DNA of 21,942 nt from positions 1 to 21,942 of the IMG/VR virus record IMGVR_UViG_3300013093_000312; one strand, written 5' to 3'. Numbering within the stretch: the first letter of the stretch is position 1; the number at the start of each line of letters is the position of its first letter. This stretch comes from a virus. This document shows positions 1 through 4,509 of this stretch, piece by piece. Below the pieces are notes generated by a model, which was not told the origin of the DNA, ran no database searches, and saw only the letters and a list, made by a program, of their open reading frames with translations. Made by a program: the position numbers and the translations under genes.

Positions 1-116
1 AAGAATGGGTAGGGTTAACAGATGAGGAAATTGTTGATTTGGTAATAAAAAACGCAGGTTTTCCAACTAAATTAGCAAAAGCAATAGAAGCTAAATTAAA
101 GGAAAAGAACACATGA
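1..116 (+). CDS. Partial hypothetical phage protein (3' end only)
   Basis: An open frame runs in from the left edge. The first whole codon is at base 3 and the stop TGA is at 114-116. The visible 37 residues read EWVGLTDEEIVDLV onward and end in a Lys-rich helix-like tail. The stop overlaps the next ATG (ATGA at 113-116), which supports it as a real upstream operon member rather than chance. No start is visible and I assign no function. Confidence 0.6.
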   Translation, partial: EWVGLTDEEIVDLVIKNAGFPTKLAKAIEAKLKEKNT

Positions 117-370
117 ATATCACAGAAGAATGGAAAATTGACGAGAAAAACAAAGTAAAAGCCGTTTGGAATAAAGACAAGACCAAACTAATTAGCGTAG
201 AAGTCATGGCTGAGGAAAAAAAAGACTTTGCAGTCAGCGCTTGCGTAAAGTTCAAACTTGGCGTTCAGGGTGATTATTTGGAGTTTTCTAAGATAGGAAA
301 CCACAACGTAGAGTTTGTCTTTGACGGCACAACTCAGAAGCTCAAGGCTTTGAGGAGAATCAAAGAATGA
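113..370 (+). CDS. Hypothetical protein, 85 aa
   Basis: The 85-residue protein is charged and Lys-rich, with no signal peptide, membrane helix or motif I recognise. Alternating hydrophobic and polar residues in the second half (for example the stretch HNVEFVFDG) suggest a small beta-rich fold. An AAGGA ribosome site lies about 10 bases before the ATG. The start overlaps the preceding stop and its own stop overlaps the next start (ATGA at 367-370), so it is part of a tightly coupled run of small genes. Function is unknown; the operon context is the only clue, and it points to an accessory gene outside the structural block. Confidence 0.7.
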   Translation: MNITEEWKIDEKNKVKAVWNKDKTKLISVEVMAEEKKDFAVSACVKFKLGVQGDYLEFSKIGNHNVEFVFDGTTQKLKALRRIKE

Positions 371-1210: not shown

Positions 1211-1522
1211 GTGGCTAATAGTAATTGTAGGTTATGTAGACATTTTGATCTACAACCGAATCAGGATTTAGGCCAATGTAGGCGTTATCCAACGTATCAG
1301 AACCGTCACGCTACGGAGTGGTGCGGAGAATTTGCAGTTGTTGAGAAGACAACTTTGACCGTGGGTAATCTGCCTACGGTCTTTTCTGATCTACCCGATA
1401 CGATAGAGAATTTGGTCGCAGAAGCAGAGAAAAGAGAGGGTTTGGACATTGCCAAGCCTGTGGACATTTTGGCCAAAAGAAAGCCCGGAAGACCTAAACT
1501 TAGTGGGAGACAGATCCCATGA
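1211..1522 (+). CDS. Small Cys-cluster protein with AT-hook-like tail, 103 aa
   Basis: The start is GTG at 1211 behind AAGGAG five bases upstream; an ATG at 1209 is in another frame and soon stops. The N-terminal 41 residues hold four Cys in the spacing C6-x2-C9, C23 and C38, within the pattern CRLC, GQCRRYP and WCGEF, as in small phage zinc-binding proteins. The middle is acidic and helical (about 60-80). The C-terminus has KRKPGRPK at 89-96, whose GRP core flanked by basic residues is the AT-hook pattern for minor-groove binding. A small zinc- and DNA-binding protein is a reasonable inference, perhaps regulatory. The stop overlaps the GroES-like start in an ATGA junction. Confidence 0.75.
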   Translation: MANSNCRLCRHFDLQPNQDLGQCRRYPTYQNRHATEWCGEFAVVEKTTLTVGNLPTVFSDLPDTIENLVAEAEKREGLDIAKPVDILAKRKPGRPKLSGRQIP

Positions 1523-1797
1523 AGCCCATAAAAGACAAAATAATAGTCAAACCCGTACCTAGAATTCAATCAGTTCTTTACATTCAGACTGCTGAGGTAG
1601 ATACTTGTGGTTATGTAACTGCAGTTGGGGACGAGGCTGCTGAGGAGGGTTTAAAGGTTGGGGATAAGGTCTGGTTTGGGACTTTAGCCAAGGACTACAA
1701 AGACGAATACCTGAAATATCACAATTTTAAGGACGGGGACGAGAAATTTCTCGTTATGTCTTGGCAGGATGTCTGTTTCGTTGAGGAGGTTGAATAA
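1519..1797 (+). CDS. GroES-like co-chaperonin (Cpn10 family), 92 aa
   Basis: The start MKPIKDKIIVKP has the usual Cpn10 opening, followed by GYVTAVGDEA, GLKVGDKVWFG and a C-terminal FLVMSWQDVCFVEE. This order (N-terminal strand, VxAVG turn, KVGDKVxFG strand, terminal strand) and the length near 95 residues fit GroES. The mobile-loop region (about 17-29) differs from bacterial GroES, as is common in phage versions. Such proteins cap the host GroEL ring so that phage proteins fold, as known for T4 gp31. Here the likely client is the coat or a fibre, which is inference. It overlaps the gene before (4 bases) and shares one base with the gene after. Confidence 0.82.
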   Translation: MKPIKDKIIVKPVPRIQSVLYIQTAEVDTCGYVTAVGDEAAEEGLKVGDKVWFGTLAKDYKDEYLKYHNFKDGDEKFLVMSWQDVCFVEEVE

Positions 1798-2100: not shown

Positions 2101-2225
2101 GCACTTTAGCCGTACATTTATTGGTCGCTATGGGCGTGGATGAGCATTTATTCATGAAATGGCGATCAGGAAAGAACTTTCACTCAACCAAAAAAGGACC
2201 GGGTAGAAGACACAAGCAGGGCTAA
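2097..2225 (+). CDS. Hypothetical basic micro-protein, 42 aa
   Basis: The ATG at 2097 overlaps the previous stop (ATGA) and the frame ends TAA at 2223-2225. The peptide starts [20 protein letters not shown] and finishes with the basic stretch [11 protein letters not shown]. It has a short hydrophobic N-terminal segment but no clear lipobox or cleavage site. The chain of coupled small genes supports translation, but the size makes this uncertain. Its stop codon touches the first bases of the long stem in the following untranslated stretch. Confidence 0.45.
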
Positions 2226-2360
2226 CAAGTATGAGGATTGAAGCGATGCGTAGCTGTCGGACGCGTTCCGTCTTTAAGTGCAGTCCTCATTCTTGTTGGT
2301 GGCTGAACCGATAACAATAGTACTCAAGAGTCGTTATCCCCGAAACTGCCAACTTTTTTT
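2224..2360 (+). ncRNA. Candidate structured non-coding RNA
   Basis: The 149 bases between genes hold no credible frame but strong structure. Bases 2224-2240 pair with 2281-2297 over 17 positions with one T-T mismatch (2230/2291) and one G-T wobble. Inside, ATGCGT (2246-2251) pairs with ACGCGT (2261-2266) around a 9-base loop. Next comes a second hairpin, whose outer stem is 2295-2302 with 2346-2353 and whose inner stem is GATAAC (2310-2315) with GTTATC (2333-2338). It ends in seven T (2354-2360). A long stem followed by an intrinsic terminator is the usual shape of a small phage RNA, or of a leader controlling the cassette that follows. I cannot match it to a named family. Confidence 0.5.
2295..2360 (+). 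terminator. Predicted Rho-independent terminator before the ParB cassette
   Basis: GTTGGTGG (2295-2302) pairs with CTGCCAAC (2346-2353), including two wobbles. An inner GATAAC/GTTATC stem extends the hairpin, and TTTTTTT follows directly at 2354-2360. It would end transcription of the accessory genes or of the candidate RNA. Bases 2295-2297 are also used by the long upstream stem, so the two helices compete at their base. Confidence 0.55.
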
Positions 2361-2374
2361 AACAAGGAACATAA

Positions 2375-2566
2375 ATGATTAAGATTGATTTATCACACAC
2401 AGTAGAAGAACTAGACCTGATCCTCGCTGGACTCAGAAAACTACCATTTGAGCTTGTTGCAGATTTACATCACAGACTCAACGTAGAAGGAAAAGCTCAA
2501 TTTGACGCTCATCCTGAGAACCCAGCAAATCAAAAGCCCGAAGCAGATGCAAGTCCAGCAGCTTAA
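2375..2566 (+). CDS. Hypothetical small protein, 63 aa
   Basis: The ATG at 2375 follows an AAGGA site at a good distance. The first 45 residues (VEELDLILAGLRKLPFELVADL core) look like two amphipathic helices joined by a turn, of a type common in environmental phages. The tail is Pro/Ala-rich and probably disordered. It is the first gene after the predicted terminator and overlaps the ParB-like gene by 20 bases, so the two are probably translated together. No function is known. It could be a partner of the ParB-like protein, which is inference from overlap only. Confidence 0.65.
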   Translation: MIKIDLSHTVEELDLILAGLRKLPFELVADLHHRLNVEGKAQFDAHPENPANQKPEADASPAA

Positions 2567-3086
2567 AGTTGAAGACTTAATTCCTTACGTCAACAACTCT
2601 AGGAAGCACTCAGACGAGCAAGTGGCGCAGATTGCTGCTTCTATTAAAGAGTTTGGGTGGACAAACCCCATCTTAATTGACGGGGAAAAAGGGATTATTG
2701 CTGGACACGGGCGTTTGATGGCAGCTCGTAAGCTAGAAATGTCAGAAGTTCCGGTCATTGAGCTCAATCATTTAACGCCTACACAAAAGAAAGCATTAAT
2801 CATTGCAGACAATAAATTGGCATTAAATGCTGATTGGGAACAAGAATTACTAAAAATTGAGATTCAAGCGTTATCTGACGATGATTTTGATATTACTTTG
2901 CTAGGGTTTGACGAAATCGAGCTTGGTAAGATGTTTGACGAAATGGACGAAGAAGACGATATAAAATCTCAAAATTACAACGAAGTATTTAATATTATTG
3001 TTGAATGTGAAGACGAGGCAGAGCAAGAGAAGATATTTAATCGACTCAATACTGAGGGTTATAAATGCCGAGTGCAAAGTTTGTAA
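2547..3086 (+). CDS. ParB/Srx-fold protein (ParB-like nuclease domain), 179 aa
   Basis: I start at ATG 2547 (MQVQQLKVEDLIPYVNNSRKH), where the ParB fold normally begins; a TTG 45 bases upstream adds unrelated sequence. Motifs in order are the N-terminal strand with N16-N17-S18-R19 and H21, a helix EQVAQIAASIKEFGW, the core box GIIAGHGRLMAARKL (residues 49-63), and IADNKLALNADW (86-97). This is the form found at the front of phage ParB-methyltransferase proteins, but no methylase follows here. Instead an acidic linker (about 122-139) leads to a short terminal unit, VFNIIVECEDEAEQEKIF to CRVQSL. The gene overlaps both neighbours, by 20 and 22 bases. Such domains bind or nick DNA, or hydrolyse CTP. 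Its job here is probably to bring the ABC-GNAT partner to DNA, which is inference. Confidence 0.85.
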   Translation: MQVQQLKVEDLIPYVNNSRKHSDEQVAQIAASIKEFGWTNPILIDGEKGIIAGHGRLMAARKLEMSEVPVIELNHLTPTQKKALIIADNKLALNADWEQELLKIEIQALSDDDFDITLLGFDEIELGKMFDEMDEEDDIKSQNYNEVFNIIVECEDEAEQEKIFNRLNTEGYKCRVQSL

Positions 3087-4129
3087 TTGAGTCTAAAACC
3101 TCAGATTCATTTAAAGCAAACAAAGTCAAATCAATGTTTGACTGTGAAATGAATGTTGTTTCTAAAACTTTTGATGTAAATATTCCAATTGAAGATATTA
3201 AATGGAATATAGAATTGATTGTCGGAGCGTCAGGAACTGGAAAAACTACGATTGCCAAGCAAATATTCAAGAATTATGAGTTTTTTGAGGGTTTTGAATG
3301 GGTTGGGCAGTCAATCATTGATGATTTTGGCGATCATTCAGCTAAAGATATAACAGAAATACTGTCAAAAGTAGGGTTTGCGTCTCCCCCTGACTGGTTA
3401 AAGCCCTTTTTTGTGCTTTCAAACGGTCAGAAAATGAGGGCTGAGTTGGCCAGATTGATCTTAAACTGCAAAGAGCCATTCATTTATGACGAGTTCACCT
3501 CAGTCGTTGACAGACAAGTAGCGTGTATAGGGTCAGCTGCTATTCAAAAGTTCATTAGGAAGCAAAATAAGCAGTTTATAGCGCTTTCCTGTCACTATGA
3601 TATAGAAGAATGGTTAGAGCCAGATTGGGTATTTGACTGTAATACGATGCAATTTTCTCGGAGGTCACTTTGTCGACCACCCATTGAATGTAAGATCAGA
3701 GAAGCAAGCCAGTCAGAATGGGGTCAATTCATGGACTTTCACTATCTGAGTCATGAACACAACAAAGCAGCCCATAAATATATCTGTGAGATTGAGAATC
3801 ATCCAGTTGCTTGGTGTTCAGTATTGCATTTTCCGCACCCTTCTGTTAAAAATATGAAAAAGATTCACAGAATCGTGGTGAAGCCAGATTATCAGGGAAT
3901 TGGGCTCGGGACGATGTTTATGAGCGAGATCGCAAAGAAATACAAAAGACAGAAAATGCGTATTTCCCTTGTGACAAGTTCTCCAGCGTTTATTCATGGT
4001 CTGAAACACAGTAAAAACTGGGTAATGACACGAAAACCAAGCAGAGTTCCACAATCCAACAATGGTCTAGCTATCAGCAAATCACATTCAGTAGATAGAC
4101 TAACGGCAACATTTGAGTACAAAACGTAA
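3065..4129 (+). CDS. ABC-type ATPase fused to GNAT acyltransferase, 354 aa
   Basis: Residues about 45-195 form a compact ABC ATPase: Walker A GASGTGKT (54-61), signature LSNGQ (118-122, a variant of LSGGQ), Walker B with catalytic pair in FIYDEF (D142, E143), D149 in the D-loop position and H-loop H177. There are no membrane helices, so it is not a transporter. Residues about 208-330 form a GNAT domain, with acyl-CoA loop VVKPDYQGIGLG (271-282) and upstream HYLSHEHN (226-233). GNAT fusions to ATPases modify macromolecules (TmcA acetylates tRNA), and Mu Mom, which modifies adenine, has a GNAT fold. A GAGGG site precedes the ATG, which overlaps the ParB-like gene by 22 bases. Domain assignment is firm. 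A DNA-modification role is inferred from ParB and terminase linkage; tRNA or protein as target is possible. Confidence 0.85.
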   Translation: MPSAKFVIESKTSDSFKANKVKSMFDCEMNVVSKTFDVNIPIEDIKWNIELIVGASGTGKTTIAKQIFKNYEFFEGFEWVGQSIIDDFGDHSAKDITEILSKVGFASPPDWLKPFFVLSNGQKMRAELARLILNCKEPFIYDEFTSVVDRQVACIGSAAIQKFIRKQNKQFIALSCHYDIEEWLEPDWVFDCNTMQFSRRSLCRPPIECKIREASQSEWGQFMDFHYLSHEHNKAAHKYICEIENHPVAWCSVLHFPHPSVKNMKKIHRIVVKPDYQGIGLGTMFMSEIAKKYKRQKMRISLVTSSPAFIHGLKHSKNWVMTRKPSRVPQSNNGLAISKSHSVDRLTATFEYKT

Positions 4130-4164: not shown

Positions 4165-4509
4165 ATGCTTGAACATGAACCAAACGATGAACTAAGAAAA
4201 ACGGCAAAAAGAGCTGCTGGTCTGGGTCTTCCGCACGAGCAGATCGGGGCGCTGATTGGCATTAGTGATAAGACATTACGCAAGTATTACGCTCCCGAAC
4301 TGGCTTTGGGTAAAGCGCAAGCATCGGCTCGTATTGCTCAGACGCTGTTTAACAAAGCTGAGAAGGGTGACACGACCGCTATGATTTGGTGGACAAAAGC
4401 GCAGATGGGTTGGGGAGAGACCAACACGACTAAGATAGCAAACCCAGATGGCTCTGCAATTGAAGGTTTCCAAATAGTGTTTAAAAATGCTGAATCTAGC
4501 GGAAGTTGA
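4165..4509 (+). CDS. Terminase small subunit-like HTH protein, 114 aa
   Basis: Residues about 20-42 (GLPHEQIGALIGISDKTLRK) form a clear helix-turn-helix. A helical region with ALGKAQASARIAQTLFNKA and a WWTKAQMGW segment follows, the usual arrangement of small HTH proteins lying directly before TerL in environmental phages. The role is recognition of phage DNA for packaging and assembly with TerL. It overlaps the TerL start by 23 bases. No Shine-Dalgarno sequence is evident before the ATG (the upstream bases are CCCCCTATAAAAAT), so translation may be weak or leaderless. Sequence alone cannot exclude a generic HTH regulator, but position makes TerS the best call. Confidence 0.78.
   Translation: MLEHEPNDELRKTAKRAAGLGLPHEQIGALIGISDKTLRKYYAPELALGKAQASARIAQTLFNKAEKGDTTAMIWWTKAQMGWGETNTTKIANPDGSAIEGFQIVFKNAESSGS

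Follow-up and report, generated by a model that had tools for sequence, protein, structure and literature searches.

A putative family of phage RNA arrays in which folded domains are exchanged between conserved stems

We analysed a 21,942-nt stretch of viral DNA (IMG/VR virus record IMGVR_UViG_3300013093_000312, positions 1 to 21,942; hereafter the window), and the element lying in one of its intergenic gaps appears to be one member of a family of phage RNA arrays, in which a pool of probably well over 100 families of separately folded domains is carried in conserved clamp stems. Each unit is made of a stem A (AACAAGUAUGAGGAUUG ... CAGUCCUCAUUCUUGUU) around a domain X, followed by a stem B (GUUGGUG ... 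CACCAAC) around a domain Y, and an array holds one to four such units in tandem. The window contains one unit, with the X1 domain in stem A and the Y13 domain in stem B, and its RNA strand is the plus strand, as for the neighbouring genes (Table 1). The stems and several domains are conserved by compensatory change, and the element is a conserved structured RNA. Because three bases are common to the 3' arm of stem A and the 5' arm of stem B, the outer pairs of the two stems compete; in the window the outer three pairs of A and B (2224-2226, 2295-2297 and 2351-2353) contend for one GUU, and the overlap is found family-wide.

Table 1. Parts of the array unit in the window
Feature	Position	Strand	Remark
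Whole inserted RNA array, one unit	2216..2360	+	Empty site in L003
Stem A, 5' arm (AACAAGUAUGAGGAUUG)	2224..2240	+	Partner 2281-2297; covarying arm pairs in relatives
Domain X loop, family X1, conserved CUUUAAGUG	2241..2280	+	11 distinct unit variants
Stem A, 3' arm (CAGUCCUCAUUCUUGUU)	2281..2297	+	U.G wobble 2238/2283 conserved
Stem B, 5' arm (GUUGGUGG)	2295..2302	+	Shares its first 3 bases with the 3' arm of stem A
Domain Y loop, family Y13, hairpin 2310-2315/2333-2338 (GATAAC/GTTATC)	2303..2345	+	L025, L031, L302, L310, L312
Stem B, 3' arm (CUGCCAAC)	2346..2353	+	Pairs with 2295-2302
T7 run	2354..2360	+	Common only to arrays at the same site; not general in the family

An earlier note, made from the letters of the window, had described in this gap a 17-position stem with one mismatch, a 6-bp hairpin inside it and a second hairpin followed by T7. 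The stem was recovered at 2224-2240/2281-2297, with 16 of its 17 positions paired (one U.G wobble counted) and one U.U mismatch, and so was the internal hairpin (2256-2261/2267-2272), which lies beside a second small one (2242-2244/2253-2255), both within X1. The second hairpin also stood, but the T7 does not directly follow it: it lies 15 nt further, directly 3' of the long-range stem 2295-2302/2346-2353 that encloses this hairpin. The claim that such a stem is rare in random DNA failed, since at least one was found in 43 of 60 dinucleotide-shuffled windows, with a mean of 2.4 per window (17 positions, no more than one of them unpaired, G.U accepted as pairing, loop of 20 to 60 nt). The fold of 2215-2370 was not unusual (z = -0.95), and that of the element alone, 2222-2356, gave z = -2.17. 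Taken by itself, the stem proves little, and it is the comparative evidence that makes the element real.

Among the matches listed, the 252 copies of stem A present about 80 distinct arm pairs (78 to 80), and these covary. The positions of stem A pair in most copies, those of internal loops excepted; exchanges comprise C-G, A-U and U-A at position 4 and G-C, A-U and U-A at position 10, and position 14 keeps a conserved U.G that would be an A.C mismatch if read on the other strand. In an unbiased covariation scan the true pairs of stem A ranked top, within each subfamily too. The C-G pair at position 2 of stem A is frequently disrupted, which would be expected were the outer GUU to pair with the CCAAC of stem B. 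For the X1 unit, 17 cells were changed on both sides compared to 7.1 in shuffles, none of 500 shuffles reaching this count or the covariation score, and the 11 distinct unit variants include a compensatory A-U/G-C change at 2242/2255. As the numbers of double-changed pairs and of pair types were not above those of the shuffles, the X1 evidence rests on cell counts, covariation score and slid controls. In Y13, the apical pairs of the hairpin change from ACU..AGU to ACC..GGU in the relatives given in Table 1. The proposal of a structured phage RNA, to be checked by compensatory changes in related phages, is upheld, the stem being kept by such changes and the unit recurring in other phages.

Some Y loops hold a further domain, T (GGGUUAGCGCC ... 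CUGCUUUAUGUGA), which was found in at least 120 contigs and within many different stems. In its alignment of 105 distinct sequences among the matches listed, the top five covarying column pairs of an unbiased scan all belong to its two helices (scores of 0.55-0.79, where the highest shuffled score was 0.15), and 131 double-change cells were counted compared to 43.5 in shuffles (0 of 500 shuffles). The T loops GUUAGCG and UGCUUUAU appear fixed among the matches listed, a conservation that is partly by construction because the scan pattern required those bases; the pairing partners lie outside the pattern, and their conservation is not built in by it.

The family was collected in two steps, the X1 loop being sought first and the stem, whatever loop it closes, afterwards; these search patterns are biased to sequences near the seeds. 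It comprises at least 277 arrays, of one or more units each, in at least 263 phage loci, the array-bearing phages coming from lakes and other waters, and a second form of stem A (AACACGCAUGGGGAUUG ... CAGUCCCCAGCCGUGUU) occurs in at least 120 contigs. The loops of stem A, that is, the X domains, measure 24-105 nt. Among the matches listed, the X domains form ~90 clusters and the Y domains 77, with 168 combinations of X and Y neighbours, cluster counts that are approximate because the Y domain ends were set by a simple rule and some are wrong. A search of bacterial genomes with the AAG-type stem A pattern gave one match, in Segatella, with no likeness beyond the pattern and looking like chance; this record (L050) was left out of the counts, except for that of stem A copies and arm pairs.

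These domains are exchanged between phages. Among the matches listed, 39 of the 48 X clusters seen in at least two loci have two or more Y partners, 29 of the 35 Y clusters seen in at least two loci have two or more X partners, and four of the X clusters are hosted by both forms of stem A. Domain T sits within B loops and within A loops, and also by itself in other stems. Moreover, phages that are nearly identical have gained, lost or replaced units, and the breakpoints fall in the arms of the stems: L022 and L028, whose flanks are 95-98% identical, differ by exactly one unit and the breakpoint falls in the repeated 3' arm of stem A, and between L038 and L049 (flanks 97-99% identical) both X and Y of the second unit are replaced. 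Since the breakpoints lie in conserved stem arms, the repeated arms act as seams for homologous recombination.

Contig L003 is 94.8-97.3% identical to the window on both sides of the gap; the match ends at 2215 and resumes at 2361, and both flanks abut in L003, contiguous at its base 4298. The about 145 extra bases of the window are an insertion relative to L003. At the same site, L031, L034 and L036 hold related but differing inserts. Between dissimilar adjacent flanks, L021 holds a copy of the window unit that agrees at 100% over 78 nt, the unit lies inside a 93-nt match in L022, which additionally matches window 1-117 at 95.7%, and L023 is also close to it. L025 carries X1 and Y13 too, but in separate units, and L302 and L312 hold relatives of both in the order of the window at a different genomic site. 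A T element is found elsewhere in the window relatives L004, L006 and L007, and the window has none. A blastn comparison of the window element with phage and plasmid records gave no match. The exact pattern GATAACAATAGTACTC was found in six contigs, in which the surrounding similarity was chance only.

Gaps holding arrays have a median of 322 nt, whereas the median over every gap of these loci is 15 nt. With genes called by a simple greedy rule, 134 of 237 cases had genes of the RNA strand on both sides and 19 had genes of the opposite strand on both sides. Arrays often lie 20-75 nt upstream of a start codon, and the starts of some directly follow a -10 box or a terminator. Immediately 5' of array starts, -10 boxes were only weakly enriched, in a comparison where the duplex step had placed T element starts too far upstream. 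The T element is present in one copy in 25 of 39 records and in two copies in 4, and the genes downstream of it are of many kinds, including terminase small subunits and repressors. At L023:6520-6720, just after the array, a promoter of TTGACA/TATAAT type leads into a short RNA-like stretch (..GAAGCCACTT..AAGTGGCTTTTTTT) with a terminator-like end, and comparable stretches follow the arrays in L119, L157 and L059; to judge from their sequences, these look like a separate small RNA common to several of these phages.

The reading that we rate most likely, with about equal confidence for and against it, is that the array is co-transcribed and that its domains act on host factors in trans, possibly in counter-defence or host takeover. 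The array would be co-transcribed from the surrounding operon and, as its placement suggests, the domains may act on host molecules, for instance as decoys or inhibitors of host or defence factors. Trans action is favoured because the domains move freely between different genes, because T usually occurs once per phage record, whatever gene follows, and because close relatives differ in their repertoire, a turnover like that of accessory host-interaction loci. No protein partner of the array domains was found. The position of many arrays just upstream of a start codon would also fit a role in cis. Hairpins at 5' ends and put-type RNAs stabilise, process or antiterminate mRNA, and the arrays could be leader or spacer RNAs doing so for their own mRNA, with loop identity mattering little. 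Their location on the coding strand in operonic gaps, often at the short distance from a start codon given above, and the array starts that directly follow a -10 box or a terminator speak for this reading. We nevertheless consider it unlikely, since several loop domains keep both sequence and covarying helices across phages, which argues that the loops matter, one and the same domain precedes unrelated genes, and the near-identical operon of L003 manages without an array.

The exchange data could also be explained by selfish or recombinogenic hairpin cassettes, similar to MITEs, REPs or integron attC sites, which would spread by recombination of their arms without benefit to the phage. Presence or absence at one site, exact gain and loss of units at repeated arms and an identical unit in unrelated surroundings are all in line with this possibility, which becomes improbable given that structural selection acts on the RNA strand of the loop domains, with G.U pairs as well as compensatory changes, that arrays follow the gene strand, that no recombinase or transposase lies beside the arrays examined and that T is mostly single-copy per record. 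For the window, the earlier note had proposed an intrinsic terminator and either a regulator of the following ParB/ABC-GNAT cassette or an independent small RNA. Window 2541-4129 encodes a ParB-like protein and, after it, an ABC-type ATPase fused to a GNAT acetyltransferase domain (phrog_11143, of unknown function); upstream, window 1519-1797 encodes a weakly GroES/Cpn10-like protein, and the phage portal is of the P22 type. The T7 directly 3' of the stem B arm would suit a terminator or attenuator, and stems A and B can compete like a terminator and an antiterminator because of their three shared bases. However, the T-run follows a stem with a 43-nt loop and is restricted to relatives at the same site (identical in L031, similar in L034), whereas most arrays elsewhere lack one, their final CCAAC leading into a ribosome-binding site or a promoter. 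A terminator scan did not list the element as an intrinsic terminator, a short G+C-rich hairpin with a T-run directly behind it. Neighbouring genes vary as well: the window unit adjoins unrelated genes in L021, L022, L023 and L025, and of the contigs L002 and L003, which both encode a 99% identical ABC-GNAT protein, L003 has the cassette without the RNA. The intrinsic terminator and the regulator of the cassette are therefore dropped, and a terminator or attenuator of this cassette is highly improbable.

Large structured-RNA families are usually single fixed folds; the fixed stems described here hold well over 100 exchangeable folded domains recombining between phages, in at least 263 viral loci. 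Returning to trans action, a bolder version of it, which we offer only tentatively, is that the domains, set in standard stem clamps, would form a combinatorial library which phages maintain and pass among themselves, an arsenal for host takeover or counter-defence that consists of RNA in place of protein. If the domains do bind host factors, they would be an RNA counterpart of the protein accessory genes in the arms race. In isolated Stenotrophomonas phages, related domains sit in long non-coding gaps, making the question testable in the laboratory. Phage SOVA965 (L286:761-1684) has a 920-nt unannotated gap with much predicted structure before four tRNA genes, in which blastn identified X8-like and Y1-like domains beside a sub-cutoff match to Proteo-phage-1 RNA, and relatives of Y15, a domain with two T-loops, were found by blastn in phages Pokken, Piffle and Paxi.

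A covariance-model search of the window with Rfam 15 gave no family above its gathering score, and no Rfam 15 family covers stem A, the window domains or domain T, the most widespread of the domains. Sixteen array or related loci gave two tRNA matches only in Rfam 15, one of them an array domain; the matches of array loci at relaxed E-values were chance only. This domain, the Y domain at L268:3294-3397 (minus strand), scores 40.1 bits as a tRNA (RF00005), with stem B as the acceptor stem, and a 42-nt insert replaces the ordinary anticodon arm; the domain has no anticodon. T-loop hairpins are enriched in Y domains (9 compared to 0.44 in shuffles), and therefore some domains may be of tRNA origin; most array domains are not tRNA-like, the window has no tRNA match and ARAGORN detected no tRNA in the array loci tested. 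Proteo-phage-1 RNA (RF03044), reportedly from Weinberg 2017, is a structured RNA named for proteobacterial phages and, like the arrays, a phage structured RNA, but it is a single fixed structure, whereas the arrays consist of exchangeable domains. It matched neither the window nor any of the 46 further IMG/VR records searched; its cut-off is 42 bits, and the best match in any record was the one of 34.7 bits in SOVA965 only.

Open-access papers on modular phage RNAs, on put RNA, on T-loop RNAs and on RNA decoys gave no account matching the arrays. Phages also encode the structured RNAs GOLLD and ROOL, which are of unknown function and often lie close to tRNA genes (PMC12286853). Each of them is one long conserved RNA, unlike the arrays of domains described here, and their Rfam models had no match in the window or in the array loci scanned. 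We know of no domain shuffling between fixed stems in either. Integron gene cassettes resemble the arrays in their cassette-type exchange with conserved stem-forming ends; the array cassettes differ in that those read had no open reading frames, no integrase was seen and conservation is at the RNA level. The TIGR systems of phages have tandem RNA units with fixed and variable parts (PMC12045711). TIGR and CRISPR arrays are in this respect like the arrays of the present study, but their variable parts are short guides, whereas those of the phage arrays are conserved folded domains reused between phages.
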